This document shows, in pieces, positions 2,511 to 18,511 of a DNA stretch of 36,207 nt (positions are counted from its first letter, which is position 1; each line of letters starts with the position of its first letter). The translations under genes and the position numbers were made by a program. Below the pieces are notes generated by a model. That model was not told where the DNA came from, searched no databases, and saw only the letters and a program-made list of their open reading frames with translations. Origin of the DNA: Protofrankia sp. CiT1. Lineage in GTDB: Bacteria > Actinomycetota > Actinomycetes > Frankiales > Frankiaceae. The DNA is taken from assembly GCF_917627385.1 (NCBI RefSeq), contig NZ_CAKJTL010000151.1, forward strand, positions 1 through 36,207. The letters run 5' to 3'.

Positions 2511-4022
2511 TCATCCGTTCGGGCCGGGAAACGGCGGCGGGCCAGCCGGTCGATAACGACCGGCAAGCGATCTTTTCACCTGTTCGACGAGTTCAGTTGC
2601 CGCGGCCTCACGCGGGAGGCCAACGAGATCAATGGCAACGATACCCCGCAGCAATCCGTCCGGCTTGCATTCCGCCACCCGCACCGGGATCAGCCTCCGT
2701 CGCATCCCGTCGGGGTCGCGCTGCCACGCGGCATGCCATTCGGCCTGTACCTCCACCGCCTGCAGGTAGTTGTCCGACAGCACCACCAAGGTACGTTCGG
2801 AATACCTGATCGCGTCGTCGAGCCGCCGCAGGTCGTGTTGGCCAGGCAGCGCGTCCCAGGTCTCGATATGCACCCGGTACCCACGCTGCTCAAGCTCCCA
2901 GGCGATCCAGGTGCCCCAGTTCTCGTCCGCCTCGGCGGCGGAGACGAGAAAGTCCCAGCGGGCCGCGTCGGCGGGCTTGTCATCGGTGACCGCCGCGGCT
3001 GGGCGCTCCGCGGCGGCGCGGTCGGTCTCGGCGCCGCGGCCGGCGGCCGGCACCTGCACCCAGGCCGTACCGGAGAACTTCGGAACCTCGACTGTGACCT
3101 CGCGGAACTCCCCTGGGTCCAGACCGCGGAGCTGCTCGGCAACGGTGGCGGCGTACAGCTCGTCGGAGACGATAAGCGCAAGATCTTCGGATGGCGCATC
3201 CGCGAGCACCTGGCGCACCGGCGGGGCGTCCACCAGCCGGGCCGCGACGATAGTCGGCTGGCCAGCGAAGCCGGTACCGTCGACGATCACATCACCGTGA
3301 TGCAACGCCAGCCGCACCCGGACCCGACCGGTGTCGTTACGGGTCCGGTTGAAGGCCCGCAGTGCTATCCGCAGCTCGCGGACGAAATCCGCGGCGAGTG
3401 TCGCCTTGGGGACGCTGACGGCGACAACACCGAGAAAACCGTCGCCCCGGTCCTGTAGCTGGATGGCGTCGGCGGCTATACCGGTCCGCCCGCAGGCCTC
3501 GTCGACGATCTCGCGCAGGCCCCGGCGCCAGGCAAGCTGGACGAGAGTGCCGTGCGCGCTGAACCGCACCGCGTCCAGAGCGAGCACGGTGTACGGCAGC
3601 GGAAGGCCATCGGGCGAGCTGAACCCGCCGGGTACGCCCGCGGCAGCGGCTGGCCCATGGCCAGCGGCGGTTCCAGCGGCGGAGAATCCAGCCGCGAAAT
3701 CCCGCGCCTGCGCGAACACCGGATTCGCCGGGTAGCGCTCGGCAGCGGCGGCGAGAATCCGCCGCCGGCCATCCGGCAACCCGCCGCTGTCGAGAAAGTT
3801 GTTCACCTCCACCCAGAACGCCAGCGGAGACTGTGCCGGCGCCCAGGACGGCTGTTCGAGTCGGTCCACGCCAGCGCGTTCCAGTAACTGGACGGCGCTC
3901 AGCGAAGTGGCGAACGCCCCCGCGAGCGCCCGGATCTCCAGCTCGGTCAGCCGCTCGCTCAAGGCCCCCCCATGAAAAACGCCATCTGCCCGGCCCATCC
4001 CGAGCGGAACTGGACGCGCCAT
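2511..4022 (-). CDS. EAD - class III cyclase-like - TIR fusion protein (candidate defence or conflict effector)
   Basis: Three modules are visible in 503 residues. Residues ~20-105 form a helical effector-associated domain (ELEIRALAGAF, LLERAGV, ILAAAAERYPANPVF). Residues ~143-325 resemble a class III nucleotidyl cyclase. Both metal-binding Asp positions are present (D150 in LALDAVRFS, D194 in DRGDGFLG), as are VRLALHHGDV and R262 in VAARL, but the Asn usual in N-x-A-x-R is replaced by Ile. Residues ~355-487 are a TIR domain (WDFLVSAAEADENW, WELEQRGYRVHIETWD, LVVLSDNYL), and E428 in AEW fits the NADase glutamate. A low-complexity Ala/Pro linker joins the last two. TIR domains in bacterial immunity cleave NAD+, EADs recruit partners by like-with-like contacts, and Pycsar pairs a separate cyclase with a TIR effector. 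A single-chain version of that logic is inference. The start is uncertain: ATG 4022 has no clear ribosome-binding site, and a TTG at 3962 just after a run of seven G (coding strand) is an alternative. Confidence 0.8.
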   Translation of the reverse strand: MARPVPLGMGRADGVFHGGALSERLTELEIRALAGAFATSLSAVQLLERAGVDRLEQPSWAPAQSPLAFWVEVNNFLDSGGLPDGRRRILAAAAERYPANPVFAQARDFAAGFSAAGTAAGHGPAAAAGVPGGFSSPDGLPLPYTVLALDAVRFSAHGTLVQLAWRRGLREIVDEACGRTGIAADAIQLQDRGDGFLGVVAVSVPKATLAADFVRELRIALRAFNRTRNDTGRVRVRLALHHGDVIVDGTGFAGQPTIVAARLVDAPPVRQVLADAPSEDLALIVSDELYAATVAEQLRGLDPGEFREVTVEVPKFSGTAWVQVPAAGRGAETDRAAAERPAAAVTDDKPADAARWDFLVSAAEADENWGTWIAWELEQRGYRVHIETWDALPGQHDLRRLDDAIRYSERTLVVLSDNYLQAVEVQAEWHAAWQRDPDGMRRRLIPVRVAECKPDGLLRGIVAIDLVGLPREAAATELVEQVKRSLAGRYRPAGPPPFPGPNG

Positions 4023-5812: not shown

Positions 5813-8317
5813 TCAGGCTGGAGCCCGCGAAGCTGCCGCCGGTGTGTCCCAGCGGCGGGGTGAACGACGGCGCTGCGGTGGCACCGCGGCCAGCGCGTCG
5901 GAAGGGTCGACAAAACGGCCTGTTGTCTCGTCAAGAACCCAGGTGTGCGCGGCGGGAATGTCGAAGTAGAGACCCACAAGCTCGAGCGGACCCCGGTCCA
6001 GCGCACGCCGCACGGCCGGGTGCCCGCGCAGGTGCTCAAGCTGGAGCACGACGTTCGCTCGGCCCAGCTGTTCCAGGGGCGACAGCGTCTCGGTACCCGG
6101 CAGCGGTGTCCGGGCCAGTGCTCCGTGCGCGTGGGTCAACCAGCCCGCCAGCGCGGAGTCAGGCTCCTGATCGATAGCGCCGGACAGCAACGCCGTCATG
6201 GCGCCGCATCCCGAGTGCCCGCACACCACGATCGAGGGCACCCGCAGGACGTCGACGGCGTAGTCGAGCGCGGCGGTCACAGACAGATCGCCCGTAGGCC
6301 CGCCAACGAGCGGGCCGTCCGACGAGACGAGCGGCACGATGTTACCGACGTTGCGGACAGTGAACAGATCGCCAGGTCCGCTACTGGTGATGATGTTCGG
6401 GACAACCCGGGAGTCGACGCAGGTGAGGAACAGCGCGCTGGGGCGCTGACCATCCGCGAGATCCCCGAGGGTGCCGCGCAGCAGCGGAGCGGCCCGGCGG
6501 TGGAACTCGGCGACCCCCACCAGCATCGTGCCGACCGGGTGAACATGACCATCAGCGACATCCACCGTACCTGTCGCATCCGGACCGCCGTCGGCCGTCA
6601 CCGGCGCGGCCGCACGGTGCGCCTCTCCGTGGGAGGCTGCCAGCTCCTGCCACTGCGACCAGGGCGCGAACCAGCGCGGCAGGTGCGGAACCACGGTCCG
6701 GCGCCGGTGGGGCTGGTCCGTACGCGGCCGCCGGAACCACGCGTGACCGATCTCGTCCACGCTCACCTGGCCGCCGGTCCGCTCATACTCGGCGCACCAG
6801 GCATGCAGATGCTCGAAGGCCGCGTGGTCGAGGTAGTCGACCACGAGCTCGATCGACACACAGGCCCCGGTGGGAACCCGGCCAAGAACCCGGGCGAGAC
6901 GCGGCAGCGAGAGAAAGCTCAGGGTGCCCTCCACATCCACCCGCCACGTCTCCCCCGTCTGGACGAGATGGATGTTCGACCACAGCACCCGGCGGAGAAC
7001 CAGGCCGAGCGCGGTGAGCATCCCGAGCACGACGCCCTGGAGCAGGTCGAGCGCGACGACACCGACGAGTGTGACAACGTACACGGGCAGTTCGCCGTGT
7101 CGCTGTACGTGGCGCAGATGGGAGACATCCACCAGCCGGACCCCGACGACGACGAGCAGGCCGGCCAGTGCGGACAGCGGAATCCACTCGACCACTCCGC
7201 CGAGAAACACCGCGAACAGCGCCACCCACACGCCGTGCAGGATCGCCGACGCCCGTGTTCTCGCTCCGGCCGCGACGTTGGTGGAACTGCGCACGATCAC
7301 ACCGGTAACAGGCAGACCGCCGGCGAGACCCGACAGGACGTTGGCTGCCCCCTGCCCGAGAAGCTCACGGTCGAGGTTGATCCGGCCCTGCGGCGCCCGG
7401 CCATGGGCGGCGGCCAGCTTCTCCACCGCCACAGCGGACAGCAGGGACTCCACACTCGCCACGATCGCGATGGTGAGGACACCGAGGATGATGCCGGACC
7501 AGTCCCCGTCGGGAAAGACCGGCAACGACACCGAACTGATGATCGACCCAGGCAGGTTGACGCGGGGCGGGTCCAGGTGGAGTGCGGCGGCGAGGACGGT
7601 CCCGACGACGACCGCGGCGAGCGGCCCGGGGATCGCGCGCAACCCGCCGGGCAGTCCGCGGACCAGCCGGGGCCACAGCACGATGACGGCGATCGTGACG
7701 GCTCCGATCAGGGCCGCGGCGCTGTGGCTGACGACGATCTGTCCGGGCAGGGCCATGATGTTGTCGATGACGTGGGAGTCCGGCTCACCGCCAAGGATGA
7801 CGTGCAGCTGGCCGAAGGCGATGGTGAGCCCGATCCCACCGAGCATGCCGTGCACGATCGCGGGTGACACGGCGAGCGCGGCGCGGGCGACCCGGCTGAC
7901 GCCGAAGAGGATCTGGACCACACCGGCGGCCGCGGTCACCGCGCATGTGACCCGCCACCCGTACGTGGTGATAAGACCGGCGACGACCACGGTGAGCCCA
8001 GCCGCAGGCCCGCTGACCTGCAGGGACGCACCTCCGAGTGCCCCCACGACGATCCCACCGATCACGGCGGCGATCAGCCCAGCGGCGACCGGCGCGCCCG
8101 TGGCGACCGCGATGCCCAGGGAGAGCGGCATCGCGACCAGGAACACCACCAGCGACGCCTGCAGGTCGGGTCGCAGCGCGGCGATCCGGCGCATGCGGTC
8201 CGGGCCGTGGGTGTTCGGGTCATGGATGGCGGTCCCCGGCACCGGCGGGGAGTGACTGTGCTGCGACAACGACGGCGACGACTCTGACGGCGGTGATGAT
8301 GGTGTGGGAACGGCCAC
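5813..8317 (-). CDS. SulP family anion transporter fused to a beta-carbonic anhydrase
   Basis: The 834-residue membrane protein has a disordered Ser/Pro-rich N-terminus (1-40) and a SulP/SLC26 transporter domain with about 10-12 membrane segments (~50-440; SLQVSGPAAGLTVVV, GRINLDRELLGQGAANVLSGLAGG). A STAS-like segment (~455-525) and a beta-carbonic anhydrase (~590-815) follow. The zinc ligands are present: C633 with the Asp-Arg dyad in CVDSR, then H701 and C704 in CGHSGCGAM. The family logic is bicarbonate uptake coupled to CO2 hydration at the membrane; substrate specificity is inference. GTG at 8317 is the start because GAGGAGGG sits 3-10 bases upstream. The 3' end abuts an R1 repeat. An inverted repeat about 170 bases upstream may be an operator. 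Confidence 0.92.
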   Translation of the reverse strand: MAVPTPSSPPSESSPSLSQHSHSPPVPGTAIHDPNTHGPDRMRRIAALRPDLQASLVVFLVAMPLSLGIAVATGAPVAAGLIAAVIGGIVVGALGGASLQVSGPAAGLTVVVAGLITTYGWRVTCAVTAAAGVVQILFGVSRVARAALAVSPAIVHGMLGGIGLTIAFGQLHVILGGEPDSHVIDNIMALPGQIVVSHSAAALIGAVTIAVIVLWPRLVRGLPGGLRAIPGPLAAVVVGTVLAAALHLDPPRVNLPGSIISSVSLPVFPDGDWSGIILGVLTIAIVASVESLLSAVAVEKLAAAHGRAPQGRINLDRELLGQGAANVLSGLAGGLPVTGVIVRSSTNVAAGARTRASAILHGVWVALFAVFLGGVVEWIPLSALAGLLVVVGVRLVDVSHLRHVQRHGELPVYVVTLVGVVALDLLQGVVLGMLTALGLVLRRVLWSNIHLVQTGETWRVDVEGTLSFLSLPRLARVLGRVPTGACVSIELVVDYLDHAAFEHLHAWCAEYERTGGQVSVDEIGHAWFRRPRTDQPHRRRTVVPHLPRWFAPWSQWQELAASHGEAHRAAAPVTADGGPDATGTVDVADGHVHPVGTMLVGVAEFHRRAAPLLRGTLGDLADGQRPSALFLTCVDSRVVPNIITSSGPGDLFTVRNVGNIVPLVSSDGPLVGGPTGDLSVTAALDYAVDVLRVPSIVVCGHSGCGAMTALLSGAIDQEPDSALAGWLTHAHGALARTPLPGTETLSPLEQLGRANVVLQLEHLRGHPAVRRALDRGPLELVGLYFDIPAAHTWVLDETTGRFVDPSDALAAVPPQRRRSPRRWDTPAAASRAPA

Positions 8318-8616: not shown

Positions 8617-11343
8617 TCAGACAGCCGCCACTCGTTCCGCGACGGACCGACGGACCGCCGCGAGCGCGTCCGTGATCGCGGCCGCGTCAGTGCCACCGCC
8701 TTGAGCAAGATCATCTTTGCCGCCGCCACCACCACCGAGGATCTTCGCGGCACCGCGGACGAGCTCCCCGGCCTTGACCCCGCGGTCACGCGCGGCGCCG
8801 CTCGTGCCCACCACGATGACCGGGCGCCGGTCGACCGCAGCCGCCACCGCGACGACCGCCGGACGCTCGGCGGGGACCCTGCCACGGATGTCAAGGACGA
8901 GCCTGCGCAGATCATCCGCGGAGGTGCCATCGGGCGCCTGGTGGGTAACCAGCGCAACCCCGCCGACGTCCTCGGCCCCGCTCGCGAGGCCGCCCGCCGC
9001 GGCCAGCACCGCGGCCGCCCGCAGCTTCTCCAGCTCCTTCTCGGCCTCGCGCAACCGTGCGAGCACCCCGGCGAGGCGCTCGGGCACTTCGGCCCGTGGC
9101 GCCTTGAGCACATCGGTGACCTGTGCGACGAGCACGGCCTCGCGGGCCAGGTAACGGTAGGCGTCCAGGCCCACGAGGGCCTCGACCCGCCGGACCCCCG
9201 CGCCGACCGACGACTCGCCCAACAGCTTGACCAGGCCAAGCTGCCCGGAGCGGCGGACATGCGTGCCACCACAGAGCTCACGGGAGTACTCGCCGATGGA
9301 GACGACCCGCACCCGGTCGCCGTACTTCTCGCCGAACATGGCGATGGCGCCGGTCTGGCGTGCCTCGTCGGCGTTCATCACCTCGGCGTGGACATCGAGA
9401 TCCTCGATCAGCACCTGGTTGATCGTCTCTTCCACGTCGGCCAGCACCGACGCCGGCACCGCACCGGCGCAGGAGAAGTCGAAACGGAACCGGCCAGGCG
9501 AGTTCTCCGAACCGGCCTGCGCCGCCGTCGGGCCGAGCGCGTCCCGCAGCGCCTGGTGAGTCAGGTGTGTGGCGCTGTGCGAGCGCGAGATCGCTCCCCG
9601 TCGGTCCAGGTCGATCTCGGCCCGCGCGTTCGCCCCGAGGACGACCCCGCCCGAGCGCACCCGGCCACGGTGGACGATCAGCCCTGGCAGGGGCTTCTGC
9701 ACATCGAAGATCTCTATCTCGGTACCGTCATCGAGGCGGACCACGCCGGTGTCGGAGAGCTGGCCACCGCCCTCGGCGTAGAACGGCGTGCGGTCGAGCA
9801 CGACCTCGACGTCGCTGCCCTCGCCGGCCTCATGGGCGGGCGACCCGTCCACCAGCAGCCCGCGGACGACGGCGGGCTCGGCGACGGTTCCGGTGATAGT
9901 CCCGGCGGCTGTCCCGCCGGTGGTCCCGGCCGCGATGTCGTAGCCGGTGAACTCCGATGGGCCGGCCGCGGCCAGCATGTCCCGGTACGCTGAGGTGTCC
10001 ACGTGCCCGGTCTTCTTCGCGCGGGCGTCGGCCTTGGCGCGCTGGCGCTGCTCGCCCATGAGCCGGCGAAAGCCCTCCGCGTCGACGGTCAGACCCTGCT
10101 CAGCCGCCATCTCCAAGGTGAGGTCGATCGGGAACCCGAAGGTGTCGTGCAGCTGGAACGCCCGCTCACCCGTGAGGACCCCGCCGCCCGCCTTCCTCGT
10201 CTCGGCCGCAGCCAGGTCGAAGATGGACGTCCCGGTGCGCAGCGTCTGGAGGAACGACGCCTCCTCGGCGGTAGCCACCGAGTCGATCCGCAGCCGGTCG
10301 GTGACAAGTTCGGGATACTGGGGGCCCATCGCCTCGATCGTGGCCGCGACCATCTCCCGCATGGTCGCGTCATGGGCGCCGAGCAGGCGCATGTTGCGGA
10401 TCGCGCGGCGCATCATCCGGCGCAGCACGTAGCCACGCCCCTCGTTACCCGGCAGCACACCGTCGCCGATGAGCATCACCGAGGTGCGCACATGATCAGC
10501 TACCACCCGCAACGACACATCCGAGCGCTGCCCGGCGCCGTAGCGGGCGCCGGTGAGTTCCGACGCCCGGTCGAGGATCAGCCGGGACGTGTCTGTCTCG
10601 TAGAGGTTGTCGACCCCCTGGAGAACCGCGGCGAGGCGCTCCAGGCCGAGGCCGGTGTCGATGTTCTTCGACGGCAGGTCACCGAGGATCGGGTAGTCCT
10701 TCTTCGAGGTCCCCTCACCCCGGATGTACTGCATGAAGACCAGGTTCCACAGTTCCAGGTAACGCTCGCCGTTCACAGCGGGGCCCCCGTCGATCCCGAA
10801 CTCCGGGCCACGGTCGTAGTTGATCTCCGAACAGGGTCCGCACGGGCCGGGCACACCCATTGACCAGAAGTTGTCCTCCATGCCGAGACGCTGGATGCGC
10901 TCGGCGGGCACCCCGACCGTGGACCGCCAGATGTCAGCGGTCTCGTCGTCGTCGAGGTAGACGGTGACCCACAGGCGGCTGTCGTCCAGGCCGTACCCGC
11001 CCGCCGAAACCGGCGTGGTGAGCAGTTCCCAGGCCAGCGGGATAACGGTCTCCTTGAAGTAGTCCCCGAAGGAGAAGTTTCCGCACATCTGGAAAAAGGA
11101 ACCGTGCCGGGTCGTCCTGCCGACCTCTTCGATGTCGGTGGTGCGCACGCATTTCTGGATGCTGGCCGCCCGGGGGTACGGCGGGCTGACCTCGCCGAGG
11201 AAGTACGGCTTGAACGGGACCATGCCCGCGTTCACGAGCAGCAGCGTGGGGTCGTCCGCGATCAGGGATGCCGACGGCACGACGGTGTGCCCGCGCTCGG
11301 CGAAGTAGCGGAGCCAGCGGCTCGCGATCTCAGCGGACCTCAT
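8617..11343 (-). CDS. alaS: Alanyl-tRNA synthetase
   Basis: The 908-residue cytoplasmic class II synthetase charges tRNA-Ala. The actinobacterial catalytic core is clear from the start: [54 protein letters not shown] and [15 protein letters not shown]. The editing domain has the zinc motifs HSATH and CGGTH, and the C-Ala domain ends with a Gly-rich loop and [11 protein letters not shown]. Length is normal for the family. ATG 11343 is favoured over GTG 11346 because GAGGAAGG is better spaced for it. In many actinobacteria alaS is followed by ruvX, mltG and aroE; none of these is downstream here (the next gene is the SulP fusion), so this is either a rearranged locus or a second copy. Confidence 0.97.
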
Positions 11344-12663: not shown

Positions 12664-14325
12664 CTAGCGCTTGCGCCGGTGGGATCCGGTCGTTTTCGCG
12701 TCAAGCGCCAACGGGGTCGTCAGCTCCGCCGACAGATCACCGCCAGCCCCGACGCCGCCAACCGGATGCTCCATGGTGCGCGATTCGGCCGCATCGTCAG
12801 CTGGGCCCCCAGCGGCACCGTCGGGATCGTCAGTCGACTCACGCTGGGTAGCGATCCTTATGCCCTCACCGTGGCCCGCGCCGCTTCTCCCCGGGTCGAC
12901 CACGCTCTGCTGGGCAACGGCTCGGTGTCTGTTCCGCCGGCCCGGCCCCATCCTGATCTGGGTGTACCCGCTGTAGGAGGGATAGCCGTAGTACATAGCG
13001 TCCAGCCCTCTGGTGGGAATCATGTTGTGTACGACCCCCAGCACCCGCGCGTCCACCGCCCGCAGCACCTCGGCGGCCCGGGCCAGCTGTTCCCGCCGGG
13101 TCCGGCCGTTGCGGACGACCAGCAGGGTGCCATCCACCTGCGCGGCGAGCACAGCCGCGTCGGTGACCGGGAGCAGCGGTGGGGCGTCGATGAGCACGAT
13201 GTCGAAGTGGCCGGACAACTCGCGGAGCACCTCGCCCATGCCGCGGGACCCGAGCAGCTCGCTGGGGTTGGGTGGCAGCGGCCCGCTGGGCAGGACCTCC
13301 AGCCGGCCACCATCATCACCCCATGGCAGCAGCACGTCATCAAGATCAACAGCACCGATCAGCACGGAGGTGAGACCGGCGGCGGTCTCGATCCCGAGGT
13401 ACTCTCTGAAGGACGGTCTGCGCAGGTCCGCCTCGACCAGCGCCACTCGTGCTCCGGCCTGCGCGAGAATGATCGCCAGGTTGCAGGTCGTCGTTGTTTT
13501 GCCCTCCGCGGACGTGGCGCTGGAGACCAGGATGACGCGCGCCGGCATGTCCACATCGGCGAACCGCAGGTTTGTCCGGAGCTGGCGAAACGCCTCCGCG
13601 CGCGCTGACTGCGCGTCCAGCGGCCCCACCAGGGGGTAGCGTGCGCCCGCGGTATCGAAGGCGATCGCGCCGAGCGTTGCCAGGCCGGTCGCCGCGGTGA
13701 TGTCGGCGTCGGTCCTGACGCTCGTGTCGAGCCGCTGACGGAGCACAGCCGCACCGATGCTCACGAGCAGGCCCAGGAGGGCACCCAGGGAAATGGCCCG
13801 TACGGGTTTCGGCGACACGGGCTCGGTCGGCAGCTTCGCCTTCTCCCACACGTTCACCCGCACCGACGGCAACTTGTCGGGAGCCGGCGTCTCGATCTGC
13901 GCGACAGCCTCGGAAAACACCTCGCCCACCGCGTCCGCGAGCGCCTGAGCGCGCCTGGCGTCGCCATCCGTCACGATGATCCGCAACAGCACCGTGTCCG
14001 GGACAGCTTCGGCCTTGATCTTGGCCTGGAGGCTCCGCGACGGCACATCAAGACCGAGCCTGGCGACGGCCCCCGCGGCGATCCGATCACTGGCCACAAG
14101 ATCGACATAGGACTTCACCCGCTGCTGGGACAGCAGACCGCCCTGATAGGCCGATGCCGCGCTGTCGGTGCCGTCTGACGACACCACCACCAGAGTCTCC
14201 GCGGCGGCGTAGGCCTTTGCCTCCCGCCAGGTGGCAGCCGCGGCGACCAGAACGCCAAGCATGACGCAGACCACCAGAAGCGGCCAACTCCGGCGGAGCG
14301 CTCTGACGTAGTCCCGAAGTTCCAC
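12664..14325 (-). CDS. Wzz chain-length determinant fused to a BY-kinase (capsular tyrosine kinase)
   Basis: The protein controls polymer length in surface-polysaccharide synthesis through an inner-membrane Wzz domain with a cytoplasmic autophosphorylating kinase. The Wzz part (~1-200) starts ELRDYVRALRRSWPLLV and has membrane segments near 14-32 and 178-195, with the Pro-rich stretch LPTEPVSPKPVR before the second. The kinase carries Walker A (SATSAEGKTTTT, ~269-280), Walker A' (LVEADLRRPS, ~296-305) and Walker B (IDAPP, ~379-383). A Tyr cluster, MYYGYPSYSGY (~444-454), is the likely phosphorylation site, followed by a charged disordered tail. The GTG at 14325 is chosen because it yields the family start; TTG 14328 is equally placed behind GGAGAGGA. 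It is divergent from the dehydratase gene, with about 118 bases between them. Confidence 0.9.
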   Translation of the reverse strand: MELRDYVRALRRSWPLLVVCVMLGVLVAAAATWREAKAYAAAETLVVVSSDGTDSAASAYQGGLLSQQRVKSYVDLVASDRIAAGAVARLGLDVPSRSLQAKIKAEAVPDTVLLRIIVTDGDARRAQALADAVGEVFSEAVAQIETPAPDKLPSVRVNVWEKAKLPTEPVSPKPVRAISLGALLGLLVSIGAAVLRQRLDTSVRTDADITAATGLATLGAIAFDTAGARYPLVGPLDAQSARAEAFRQLRTNLRFADVDMPARVILVSSATSAEGKTTTTCNLAIILAQAGARVALVEADLRRPSFREYLGIETAAGLTSVLIGAVDLDDVLLPWGDDGGRLEVLPSGPLPPNPSELLGSRGMGEVLRELSGHFDIVLIDAPPLLPVTDAAVLAAQVDGTLLVVRNGRTRREQLARAAEVLRAVDARVLGVVHNMIPTRGLDAMYYGYPSYSGYTQIRMGPGRRNRHRAVAQQSVVDPGRSGAGHGEGIRIATQRESTDDPDGAAGGPADDAAESRTMEHPVGGVGAGGDLSAELTTPLALDAKTTGSHRRKR

Positions 14326-14443
14326 CAACAGACCTGTCCTCTCCGGGCAAAACATCCTAGTTATCGCAGCACGACGCTGCGCAACCAACATACTCGCTCC
14401 GCATCCATGTACTTACCATCAGTAGTTATTACGCTGTGGAGTC
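14326..14443. promoter_or_regulatory. Divergent promoter region of the polysaccharide genes
   Basis: The 118-base gap between the divergently read BY-kinase and dehydratase genes contains an AT-rich stretch at 14405-14440 (TACTTACCATCAGTAGTTAT). Both genes must be driven from here. No convincing -35/-10 pair can be named. Confidence 0.4.
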
Positions 14444-16378
14444 ATGCAGAAACAGAAGACTTTTGGCCCTCAAGAGCTCCGGTGGTGGCGGGCCGTCGCC
14501 CGGCTGTCCCTGTTGGACCTGCGCTGGCGGGTCGGCCTCCAGATCGGTGTCGACGCGGCGTGCCTGGTACTCGGCCTGAGTGCGGCCTACCTCGCCCGGT
14601 TCGGCCAGCCGCCCGTGGCCGACGCCGGATTCTGGGTGATCGCCGTTCTCGCGGCCTGCCTGCTCTACGTCACCGGCACAGCTCTGCACCTCTACCTTGG
14701 GCGCTACCGGTTCGGCGGCTTCGACGAGGTACTCGCCCTGACCTGCTCGGTCGGGCTGGCCACGCTCGGGATCGTCGTCGTCGACGCCGGCATCAGCCGG
14801 CCCGGGCCGCTGCCGGTGAGCGTCCTGCCGCTGGCGGGCGCGGTCGGTCTCGTCGCGATGTTCGGCATCCGTTACCTGTGGCGACTGGCCGAGAAACGCG
14901 GCCGGCGCCCACAGCGCCCCGATGCCGAGCCGATCATTGTTTTCGGTGCGGGTGACGGTGCCGACCGCGTGCTGGCCTCGATGCTGCACACCCCGGACAG
15001 CCCGTACCGGCCGGTGGCCCTGCTCGACGACGATCCCCGCACCTGGAACCTGGCCCTGAGCGGGGTGCGGGTACGCGGCGGGCGGGAGGACATCGCCACG
15101 GTCGCCAGCCAGACCGGCGCGCGTACCCTGCTGGTGGCCATCCCAAGCGCCGACGCCACGCTGCTACGGGAGATCACCGAGGTCGCCGAGGAGGCGGGCC
15201 TCACCGTCAAGGTGCTCCCGCGGGTGGTGGATCTCATCGACGGGCGCGTGGACGTGCGTGACATCCGCGACCTCGACCTCACCGATCTGCTGGGGCGTTG
15301 CCAGATCCAGACCGACGTCTCCTCGGTTGCGGGCTATCTCACCGGTAAACGCATCCTGGTCACCGGAGCCGGCGGCTCGATCGGTTCCGAACTGTGCCGC
15401 CAGATCCACCGCCACCAACCCGAAAAAATGATCATGCTTGACCGGGACGAATCAGCCCTGCGGGCCGTCCAGCTGTCCATTCACGGCCAGGCGATCGCCG
15501 ACGACGAAGCCGTGGTGCTGTGTGACATCCGGGACGTCGAGGCTGTCGACGCGCTGTTCGACCGGCACCGTCCGCAGGTGGTCTTCCACGCCGCCGCACT
15601 GAAACACCTGCCGCTGCTGGAACGCTTCCCCGGCGAGTCGATCAAGACCAACGTCTGGGGGACGCTCGCGATCCTCGACGCCGCCGTCGCTGTCGGCGTC
15701 GAACGCTTCGTCAACATCTCAACCGACAAGGCCGCGAACCCGACGAGTGCCCTGGGCTACTCCAAACGAATCACCGAACGCCTGACCGCCCACGTCGGCC
15801 AGCGTGCGCGTGGGGTATTCGTCAGTGTCCGGTTCGGTAACGTCCTGGGCAGCCAGGGCTCCGTACTGAGGATCTTCGCCAGCCAGCTGGCGGCCGGCGG
15901 TCCGCTCACGGTCACGCATCCGGATGTCACCCGTTACTTTATGACCGTCGAGGAAGCCGTGGAGCTTGTCATCCAGGCCGGCGCGCTGGGTGGGAACGGC
16001 GACGTCCTCGTGCTCGAGATGGGCCAGCCCGTGCGAATCGCCGATGTCGCCAAACGCCTCGCGGCCCGGGCTGCGCGCCCCGTCGAGGTGATCTACACGG
16101 GGCTCAGTGCCGGCGAGAAACTGCACGAGGAGCTCTTCGACGACAACGAGCACGACATCCGCCGCCATCACCCCCTGATCTCCTACGTGTCGGCGCCGCC
16201 GGTCGAGCGGCGGCACATCCTCGATCTCGACCCGTGGGGACAGCCGGAAAGCGCCAGGACCGCACTGCGCCAGCTCGCCCGCTGCGAGGATCTCGGCGTC
16301 CAGCCGCGGTTGGAGGCCGAGATACCCGTCCAGCCCCGACCGGGCCAGACGCCCACCGCGGTCGCCCACGAACAGTGA
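14444..16378 (+). CDS. Membrane-bound nucleotide-sugar 4,6-dehydratase (CapD/WbpM type)
   Basis: The 644-residue enzyme would convert a UDP-N-acetyl sugar to the 4-keto-6-deoxy sugar, the first step to modified sugars in surface glycans. About four membrane segments lie in 30-148 (for example FWVIAVLAACLLYVTGTALHL). A nucleotide-binding-like domain (IIVFGAGDGADRVLASML, ~164-181) is followed by the catalytic extended SDR domain with TGAGGSIGSELCRQI (~307-321). The catalytic segment reads STDKAANPTSALGYSK: Ser and Lys are present, but the classical Tyr position is Leu437, just as the large WbpM/PglF enzymes carry Met there. The nearby Tyr439 is out of register. The ATG at 14444 follows a short GTGGAG. 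The stop lies in an 18-base tandem duplication. It converges on the DegT-family gene after 26 bases. Confidence 0.92.
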   Translation: MQKQKTFGPQELRWWRAVARLSLLDLRWRVGLQIGVDAACLVLGLSAAYLARFGQPPVADAGFWVIAVLAACLLYVTGTALHLYLGRYRFGGFDEVLALTCSVGLATLGIVVVDAGISRPGPLPVSVLPLAGAVGLVAMFGIRYLWRLAEKRGRRPQRPDAEPIIVFGAGDGADRVLASMLHTPDSPYRPVALLDDDPRTWNLALSGVRVRGGREDIATVASQTGARTLLVAIPSADATLLREITEVAEEAGLTVKVLPRVVDLIDGRVDVRDIRDLDLTDLLGRCQIQTDVSSVAGYLTGKRILVTGAGGSIGSELCRQIHRHQPEKMIMLDRDESALRAVQLSIHGQAIADDEAVVLCDIRDVEAVDALFDRHRPQVVFHAAALKHLPLLERFPGESIKTNVWGTLAILDAAVAVGVERFVNISTDKAANPTSALGYSKRITERLTAHVGQRARGVFVSVRFGNVLGSQGSVLRIFASQLAAGGPLTVTHPDVTRYFMTVEEAVELVIQAGALGGNGDVLVLEMGQPVRIADVAKRLAARAARPVEVIYTGLSAGEKLHEELFDDNEHDIRRHHPLISYVSAPPVERRHILDLDPWGQPESARTALRQLARCEDLGVQPRLEAEIPVQPRPGQTPTAVAHEQ

Positions 16379-16404: not shown

Positions 16405-17694
16405 CTACGCCGACGTCGCCACCGACATGACCTTGACGAGCGCGTCGGAGGCGTCGGAGATGTCGGACAGGTCGAGGGCCGGATGCACGAGGAGGGCGAT
16501 CGCCGTACGGCCCAGCTCCCTGGCCACCGGCAGGGACGCCGCGGGGCGCCACCACGCGGGCACGGCCGCCTCCCGATACACCTCCCGAGGGCAGCCCGTG
16601 AAGCAGGGGACTCCCTCCGCCCGGACAGCCGCCACGACCCGATTGCGGTTCCAGCCGTCGTGGAGCAGGTCAGTCCGCACAAACGCATACCAGCGGTAGT
16701 AGGCGTGGCCGACGTGAGAAGGGGGCGAGACCAACCGCAGCGCCGCTACATCGCGGAGCCGCAAGGCGAGCAGCAGGGCGTTGTCCCGGCGCCGCTCGAC
16801 CATCTCCGGCAGGTGCGGAAGCCCTGCCCGGCCTACCGCCGCGGCCAGTTCGTGCATGCGGGCATTCGTGCCGAAGCCGCCATGGGCGAGAGGTGAGCCG
16901 CCACCCTGCTCCCAATCGCGATCATCGAACCCGTCGCCGCCGAAGTCGTCTATTGACAGGCCGTCCGGCTCCAGCCTCGGTTCGGCCCCCGCGTCCACGA
17001 CCGCGAAACGCCGCCCCTGCTCCTTGTATGACCACGCCGCCCGGTACAGCGCCGCATCGTCAGTGGTGACCATGCCACCCTCACCAGCGGTGCTCAGAAT
17101 TCTATCGTAGCCGAATGACCACACACCGATATCGCCTCGTGTCCCAACCGATCGGCCTCGCAGGGTGGCCCCGTGCGCCTGGCCGCAATCCTCGATGACA
17201 GCGAGTCCGCGGGTTCGAGCCAGGCCCCGCAGCGCGTCCACATCCGCTGGCCAACCGGCCAGGTGAACGGCGACGACAGCACGGGTCCGCGCGGTGAGCA
17301 CCCGGCGGATACAGTCAACGGTGATCGTCTGTGACTCAGCGTCCACATCGGCGAACACTGGACGGGCGCCGAGAGCGGCGACGCAGTTGACCGGCGCGAT
17401 GGTCGACCGCGCCGGCACCACCACCTCATCCCCCGGCCCGACCCCGACCACCCGCAGGGCGATCTCCAGGGCAACCGTGCCGTTGGCCACAGCCACCCCA
17501 TGACACGCGCCGACGGCTTCGGCGAACTCGCGTTCAAAACGCCTGCCCTCGCGGCCCGTCCAGTAGCTGACGTCGCCCCTACGCATGGTCGCCGTCGCCG
17601 TGGCGATCTCCTCAGGACGAAAGACGGGCCATCGCGGATACGGCCTGTCACGAACTGGCTGTCCGCCGTCGACGGCTAGCCGGGACGTTGCCAA
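16405..17694 (-). CDS. DegT/DnrJ/EryC1/StrS family protein lacking the PLP lysine
   Basis: The 429-residue protein has the fold of sugar aminotransferases that act after a 4,6-dehydratase. Visible are RRGDVSYWTGREGRRFEREFAEAVG, VANGTVALEIALRVVGVGPGDEVVVPARSTIAPVNC, and VIEDCGQAHGA with D169 for the pyridine nitrogen. In the active-site segment WSFGYDRILSTAGEGGMVTT, residue 198 is Arg (AGA, 17101-17103) where the Schiff-base Lys normally stands. Without it the protein is unlikely to be a normal transaminase; it could be a pseudo-enzyme, a regulator, or a changed chemistry like that of the His-variant ColD. An acidic insert follows (~230-260). The TTG at 17694 is the most plausible start, about 13 bases after AGGGGTGA; no ATG or GTG lies nearby in frame. 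It converges on the dehydratase gene. Confidence 0.82.
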   Translation of the reverse strand: MATSRLAVDGGQPVRDRPYPRWPVFRPEEIATATATMRRGDVSYWTGREGRRFEREFAEAVGACHGVAVANGTVALEIALRVVGVGPGDEVVVPARSTIAPVNCVAALGARPVFADVDAESQTITVDCIRRVLTARTRAVVAVHLAGWPADVDALRGLARTRGLAVIEDCGQAHGATLRGRSVGTRGDIGVWSFGYDRILSTAGEGGMVTTDDAALYRAAWSYKEQGRRFAVVDAGAEPRLEPDGLSIDDFGGDGFDDRDWEQGGGSPLAHGGFGTNARMHELAAAVGRAGLPHLPEMVERRRDNALLLALRLRDVAALRLVSPPSHVGHAYYRWYAFVRTDLLHDGWNRNRVVAAVRAEGVPCFTGCPREVYREAAVPAWWRPAASLPVARELGRTAIALLVHPALDLSDISDASDALVKVMSVATSA

Positions 17695-17926
17695 GATGCC
17701 AATAACGTCACCCCTAGTTTCTTTTATGTCTCTCTTAGCAATATCACAGCAGTTGGGCCACCAGCACCGCCGGGGGTGTCCAGTTGGAATCATCCGCCCC
17801 GCGTGCCATCCCGCGACCGCTGGCGATGTATGAGACCGTCGTCGTTTTACCGTTGTCCCAAGACCCCCGGCCCGGGAGATTGACCAGGTCCGCACATACG
17901 ATCATCCAACGCAGGAGAATGGGCAG

Positions 17927-18511
17927 GTGAACCCTCAGTGGGAATCGCGGCTCCGCGTACGCGACACGACCCGGCCGGAGGCGTTACGCGCTACCAGCTC
18001 GCTCACTCTATTTATGATCATAATCATGACAACGGTCCTGACCGGCTGTGGCGCGGCCACGCCCCGGTCATCAGTCCGGGTCCCGCCCGATCTGATCCCC
18101 CTCTTCCAGGAGGCCGCGACCGTCTACGGTGTGCTCACCGCCGCGCAGCTCGCTGGTCAGGCGCGGGTGGAAAGCAAGTTCAACCGGCTGGCTGTATCCG
18201 CCGCCGGTGCTCGAGGCCTTATGCAGTTCCTGCCCGAGACCTGGAAACAGTTCGGTGTCGACGGTAACGCCGACGGGATGGCGAATCCCCTGGATCCGGC
18301 GGACGCTATCCCGTCCGCCGCGCACTATGAGGCCCACCTGGCCGACGTCGTCCAGAAGCTGCCCGGCGACCGCGTGTCGCTGATTCTCGCCGCGTATAAT
18401 GCTGGGCCCCGGGCCGTCCGTGACGCTGGCGGTGTCCCTGACTTTGGCGAGACCAGGGCGTATGTCGCCAAGGTCCACAGCTGGGCCAGCCGTTTTAATG
18501 ATCAGTTGTAG
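17927..18511 (+). CDS. Lytic transglycosylase (SLT domain) lipoprotein
   Basis: The 194-residue protein has a lipoprotein signal peptide with an unusually long N-region, the hydrophobic stretch SLTLFMIIIMTTVLTGC and a lipobox ending at Cys (~residue 41). The mature part is a compact SLT-type goose-lysozyme fold that cleaves peptidoglycan glycan strands. The catalytic Glu is in ARVESKFNRLAVS, followed by GARGLMQFLPETW, DPADAIPSAAHY and LAAYNAGPRAV, all classic family motifs. GTG at 17927 is preceded by AGGAGA. It is divergent from the DegT gene; the 232 bases between them (17695-17926) hold an AT-rich part near 17710-17750 and no other feature. It would act at the outer face of the membrane, with no evident partner. 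Confidence 0.9.
   Translation: MNPQWESRLRVRDTTRPEALRATSSLTLFMIIIMTTVLTGCGAATPRSSVRVPPDLIPLFQEAATVYGVLTAAQLAGQARVESKFNRLAVSAAGARGLMQFLPETWKQFGVDGNADGMANPLDPADAIPSAAHYEAHLADVVQKLPGDRVSLILAAYNAGPRAVRDAGGVPDFGETRAYVAKVHSWASRFNDQL

Follow-up and report, generated by a model that had tools for sequence, protein, structure and literature searches.

A DegT-family protein with arginine at the Schiff-base position: putative recent inactivation of a diverged UDP-sugar aminotransferase in a Frankia cluster-2 lineage

The window, a 36,207-nt stretch of DNA, comes from a Frankia-like root-nodule symbiont of the Frankia cluster-2 lineage. At 16405..17694 it carries a gene for a DegT/DnrJ/EryC1/StrS-family protein of 429 aa, a member of the Pcryo_0638-like subfamily without the Schiff-base lysine. 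The initial annotation gave no strand; the gene lies on the minus strand (17694-16405). Its longest open frame runs from 17895 to 16405 and codes for 496 aa, while the TTG start at 17694 gives the 429-aa product. Over these 429–496 codons there is neither a stop codon nor a frameshift, in keeping with the earlier description of the frame as otherwise full length, and the locus lacks the disrupted frame expected of a pseudogene.

The start of the gene is unusual. Its Shine-Dalgarno-like run, AGGGG, has no ATG, GTG or TTG at the usual spacing: the TTG follows it after 16 nt and an in-frame ATT (17703-17701, minus strand; candidate start region, 17701..17715) after 7 nt. At the equivalent place in a remnant of the gene in a sister genome, G025 (described below), GAGGAG is likewise followed after 7 nt by ATT. 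As read directly from the sequence, ATT is a possible true start codon, and the arrangement may result in weak initiation.

Downstream, the gene converges on that of a membrane-type nucleotide-sugar 4,6-dehydratase (Polysacc_synt_2; 14444..16378, plus strand; PF02719, E=8e-96), the two ends lying 26 bases apart. Beyond the dehydratase, profile searches identified a Wzz-like/ParA-like polysaccharide chain-length and kinase protein (12664..14391, minus strand). On the other side is a gene for a transglycosylase-SLT protein (17927..18511, plus strand; profile search and synteny), which served as the syntenic flank for finding the locus in sister genomes. More distant genes of the window include one at 2511-4022 (minus strand) for a protein that combines an effector-associated domain (EAD1) with a TIR domain, as in conflict systems, and one at 5813-8317 (minus strand) for a SulP-type anion permease fused to a carbonic anhydrase domain.

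Membership of the DegT family is clear from both profile and fold. The protein matches PF01041 (DegT_DnrJ_EryC1) in Pfam with E=1.9e-78 over profile positions 5–355 of 360, and its AlphaFold2 model (pLDDT 87.9) has the type-I PLP fold of sugar aminotransferases, with 7l7x as the best PDB fold match (TM 0.85/0.92). The closest solved protein by sequence is also 7L7X (Pcryo_0638), with E=3e-94 compared to 6e-44 for the next best PDB match; E1 and ColD score far below 7L7X in this comparison. Pcryo_0638 aminates C-4 of UDP-2-acetamido-2,6-dideoxy-4-keto-glucose (PMC8040287). In the subfamily tree, the window protein belongs to the WSFCQDK clade, where it branches from within a group of orthologues belonging to other genera of its family (support 98/94). 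The orthologues adjoin a PF02397 sugar-phosphate transferase in all four cases looked at, and one of the four is also near a PglD-like acetyltransferase. Neither of these partners is encoded in the 36,207 nt of the window. Of the two pathway partners expected for a Pcryo_0638-type enzyme, a 4,6-dehydratase is encoded next to the gene, whereas no N-acetyltransferase is encoded in the window and one PglD_N protein is encoded elsewhere in the genome (C41). The genome contains three other DegT genes, each with the lysine.

The active-site segment VWSFGYDRILSTAGEGGMVTT is present, and the codon of its Arg198 (R265 of the longest frame), at 17101-17103 on the minus strand, is AGA. In pairwise, clade and 105-sequence alignments this residue falls in the column of the Schiff-base Lys (Lys185 of Pcryo_0638), where the SFxxxK motif of PLP-dependent sugar aminotransferases would have its Lys. 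The initial annotation had placed an Arg here on inspection alone, and alignment with 7L7X and homologues confirms it. Among the 105 aligned homologues, the column holds 102 Lys, one Arg (the window gene alone), one His and one gap. The His belongs to L034, whose best match is E1, a Lys-less 3-dehydrase, which indicates that the alignment picks up true exceptions; the gap is the Candidatus Frankia meridionalis remnant. A search of 297 genomes of the class with a DNA pattern for the Arg-bearing motif, restricted to the five-residue spacing from Arg to GEGG, found the window gene and nothing else. Homologues with the same Arg are hence absent from both the alignment and this search. We considered whether another lysine could serve as a substitute and rejected the idea. 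The protein has just two lysines, K223 and one near the C-terminus; the orthologues carry a Lys at K223 in addition to their catalytic Lys, and the alignment places no other Lys in the pocket. These alignments support the view that we are dealing with a DegT-family protein that lacks the PLP lysine and is hence no ordinary transaminase.

The codon itself is informative. AGA was said to be rare in this style of genome, and of the 652 Arg codons in 14 genes of the window it supplies 1.7%. It is a single step from AAA, which makes up 28% of the Lys codons in the window genes (22/79). An Arg of long standing would be expected to appear as CGN or AGG. The Arg thus looks young: from codon use, we estimate odds of about 16 to 1 for a young Lys-to-Arg change against an equilibrated Arg, which suggests that the change is recent.

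Other active-site positions fall into two groups. Asp169 (17188..17190), correctly recognized from the start as the PLP ring-nitrogen Asp, is equivalent to Asp156 of Pcryo_0638 and is kept. Also kept, in Pcryo_0638 numbering, are Trp9, Thr60, Gln159, Ser180, Asn239, Phe335 and Gly337. Together these residues make the contacts to the PLP phosphate and ring and some of those to the uracil (PMC8040287), and the PLP contacts other than Lys (the equivalents of Asp156, Gln159, Thr60, Ser180 and Asn239) are all present. The substrate side is different. Gly195-Tyr196 (17107..17112) replaces an invariant Cys-Gln, the Gln being Gln183 of Pcryo_0638; Ser267 (16894..16896) replaces the uracil-stacking aromatic, Tyr229 of Pcryo_0638, which is Phe or Tyr in all orthologues; and Arg228 (17011..17013) replaces Lys215, a phosphate contact from the other subunit. 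In 7L7X, Gln183 binds the acetamido group at C-2 of the substrate and Tyr229 stacks on the uracil (PMC8040287); the substrate contacts of a Pcryo_0638-type UDP-QuiNAc4N aminotransferase are here Tyr and Ser. In addition, an in-frame insertion of 25 residues (238-262; 16909..16983), modelled with low confidence, is seen in 0/17 subfamily members. The initial annotation had missed the insertion and these further losses.

We also counted the alignment columns that are invariant in 17 relatives. Twenty of 113 such columns are changed in the window protein, compared to 0–6 for each relative in a leave-one-out count. Pocket-specific loss, considered as a sign of a pseudoenzyme, was rejected: 10/39 invariant residues near ligand contacts are lost versus 10/73 elsewhere, with no significant enrichment (Fisher p 0.10-0.26). 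The protein as a whole has an evolutionary rate about 1.7 times that of its sisters. Its terminal branch is 1.26 in the tree, versus 0.66 or less for sisters from the shared node, and relative-rate counts are 68 versus 39 with L150 as sister and L131 as outgroup (chi-square 7.9; 1.5–12.6 over other pairs).

We then turned to the other members of the genus. In G025 (Candidatus Frankia meridionalis; L038/L116), a deleted and frameshifted remnant of the DegT gene occupies the syntenic locus, between the SLT gene and a dehydratase 80% identical to that of the window. G023 and G024 show no trace of the DegT gene at the locus, with the dehydratase, a tyrosine-phosphatase-like frame and the SLT gene present. 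The G026 contig ends inside the dehydratase. In sum, the dehydratase is kept in 5/5 genus members, and an intact DegT copy is found in none of the three others that could be checked. The G024 dehydratase (L066 3538-5407) is frameshifted near its C-terminus, with residues 537-644 in another frame. The tyrosine-phosphatase-like frame (MDRWFNLVGADNVRDLGGL...) lies between the dehydratase side and the SLT gene in G023, G024 and G025 (L038 10258-11013; L065; L066) and is missing from window positions 17700-17927, which implies that the window underwent one more deletion or rearrangement. Gene decay is frequent among cluster-2 Frankia; Candidatus Frankia datiscae Dg1 has 325 pseudogenes, 7% of its genes (PMC4447401).

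The remnant also allows an estimate of selection. Between the window gene and the G025 remnant, dN/dS is 0.17 over 100 codons, a biased sample in that the remnant represents the better-kept parts of the gene; values for neighbouring genes are 0.09–0.30. This likeness to the neighbours indicates that the gene was constrained for the greater part of the period after the two species diverged. With a value of 0.1 assumed for functional constraint, simple arithmetic on 0.17 allows only about 8% of the joint path to have been neutral, again with the remnant biased towards better-kept parts. Two unusual residues, S435C and F445V (longest-frame numbering), are common to the window protein and the remnant, which shows that divergence began before the split, with selection still acting. 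Had the roughly 28 excess replacements accumulated in a purely neutral phase, the frame would have stayed free of stop codons in only some 30% of cases, and indels lower the chance further.

These data bear on the earlier claim that the gene is not a case of simple decay, which stands in part. The intact frame and low dN/dS agree with it; the wrecked copy in the sister species, the loss of 20 invariant residues and the fast evolution do not. The open frame, the dN/dS and the two odd residues common to the remnant speak against long neutral decay, whereas the sister's loss and the AGA codon speak for a recent one. On balance, we favour the view that the window gene is a diverged UDP-sugar 4-aminotransferase that was recently inactivated in a lineage losing it. 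Judged from sequence, the protein is most likely a dead or dying enzyme rather than a new catalyst. The ancestor would have been a Pcryo_0638-type aminotransferase that aminated a UDP-4-keto sugar at C-4. In the Frankia cluster-2 lineage, the gene stands apart from the set of genes alongside which its orthologues function. The substrate pocket would have diverged under selection, followed by the change of the Schiff-base Lys to Arg, recent to judge by its codon, with which transamination would have ended. From what is known of the family, an Arg would provide no internal aldimine and no general base for the 1,3-proton shift, hence no aminotransfer. The product is predicted to fold and would probably still bind PLP or PMP non-covalently. 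Binding without the Lys is suggested by analogy with K-to-A mutants of ArnB, WbpE and perosamine synthase, for which PDB titles give PLP or a sugar ligand as bound. The gene would thus be at an early part of a loss already completed in the sister species. We infer the loss of activity, its recency and the absence of a new function from these patterns.

The strongest competing explanation, also raised in the initial annotation, is that the protein is a selected pseudoenzyme or has altered chemistry, its fold and PLP/PMP pocket being under selection with transamination given up. It might, for example, be a regulatory or partner subunit of another DegT protein, a binder of a sugar nucleotide or cofactor, or the catalyst of a PMP-dependent, Lys-free reaction. 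Much of the evidence for past constraint fits this scenario, namely the intact frame with its low dN/dS over the comparable stretch, the well-predicted fold and the retained PLP contacts. Active-site changes such as Gln to Tyr need several nucleotide steps, the genome has three other Lys-bearing DegT genes, and the 3-dehydratases are a precedent for a DegT fold that works without Lys (PMC8987622). However, the Arg is shared by no homologue, the gene is lost in the sister species and without trace in others, pocket residues are not significantly enriched among those lost, the rare AGA points to a young change, and no DegT partner gene is adjacent. We entertain selection on a non-transaminating protein only tentatively. 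Somewhat less probable still, in our view, is the specific proposal of a selected DegT pseudoenzyme or new cofactor chemistry with Arg for the Schiff-base Lys and the PLP/PMP pocket kept. If true, it would be a natural counterpart to the Lys-less 3-dehydratases. We know of no earlier DegT protein with Arg for Lys that is kept by selection, and this one would be the first. A literature search on Lys-to-Arg DegT proteins and DegT pseudoenzymes found nothing useful.

An error of one base in sequencing or assembly, with AAA read as AGA, would restore the Lys and leave a diverged but working aminotransferase with a changed substrate choice. AGA and AAA are a base apart, AAA encodes 28% of the Lys residues in the window, the genome is a draft of 191 contigs, and a cluster-2 nodule metagenome can contain several strains together (PMC6735867). 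Nevertheless, the Cys-to-Gly and Gln-to-Tyr changes and 17 other changed invariant positions are not explained by a single error, and we consider this improbable. Even less credible is a slow aminotransferase in which the Arg, or another base, transfers the proton from an externally formed aldimine. The PLP contacts are kept, but the Gln183 and Tyr229 substrate contacts are lost, Arg serves poorly as a base near neutral pH, and no relative uses it. A scaffold or partner for the neighbouring dehydratase, one of the roles initially proposed, suits the close spacing of the two genes and the fact that dehydratase and aminotransferase catalyse successive steps of UDP-diacetamido-sugar synthesis (PMC8040287), yet is very improbable: the genes are convergent and not co-transcribed, and the dehydratase, persisting as it does in the four other genus members, three of them checkable and without an intact DegT copy, seems not to need the DegT protein.

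If recent inactivation is correct, the locus would be a snapshot of a symbiont losing a surface-sugar pathway, with the loss of catalytic residues preceding that of the reading frame. An annotation based solely on family membership would then call this gene a working enzyme.

Comparison with known systems helps to define what is distinctive about the protein. Its nearest relatives in the tree are the family orthologues from other genera (L131, L132, L133, L135, L150 and L151), which are 53–57% identical to it, all with the catalytic Lys and all slower evolving. The Candidatus Frankia meridionalis Cppng1 remnant (L038 about 9558-10114; L116) lies in the same place and is ∼78% identical in DNA; unlike the window gene, it has the active-site segment deleted, several frame breaks and an expanded GTGGAC repeat. 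This hexamer expansion (L038 about 10010-10070) codes for (DV)n at the position of GWPADVDALRGLAR in the intact gene.

The best match in sequence and fold, and a member of the same subfamily, is Pcryo_0638 (7L7X), the UDP-2-acetamido-4-amino-2,4,6-trideoxy-D-glucose aminotransferase of Psychrobacter cryohalolentis. The two proteins have the PLP ring Asp and the Gln, Thr, Ser and Asn contacts in common. They differ in Lys185 to Arg, Gln183 to Tyr, Lys215 to Arg, Tyr229 to Ser and the 25-residue insertion, and the window gene, compared to that of Pcryo_0638, has no acetyltransferase or phosphosugar transferase neighbour. Dead subunits of the LCB1 type are Lys-less partners with a PLP-enzyme fold that are kept by selection; relative to these, the window protein has no adjacent partner gene and no evidence of a heterodimer. 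The ColD/E1 3-dehydratases likewise have the DegT fold without a Schiff-base Lys, and ColD-like altered chemistry had been suggested at the outset. The parallel is weak. ColD and E1 carry His and form a separate branch, whereas the window protein has Arg, which no homologue shares, and groups with the Lys-bearing aminotransferases; it has neither the His for Lys of ColD, E1 and SpnQ nor a sequence closest to E1/ColD. An E1-type protein does occur within the taxonomic family of the window organism, in L034, and provides a direct contrast to the protein described here.
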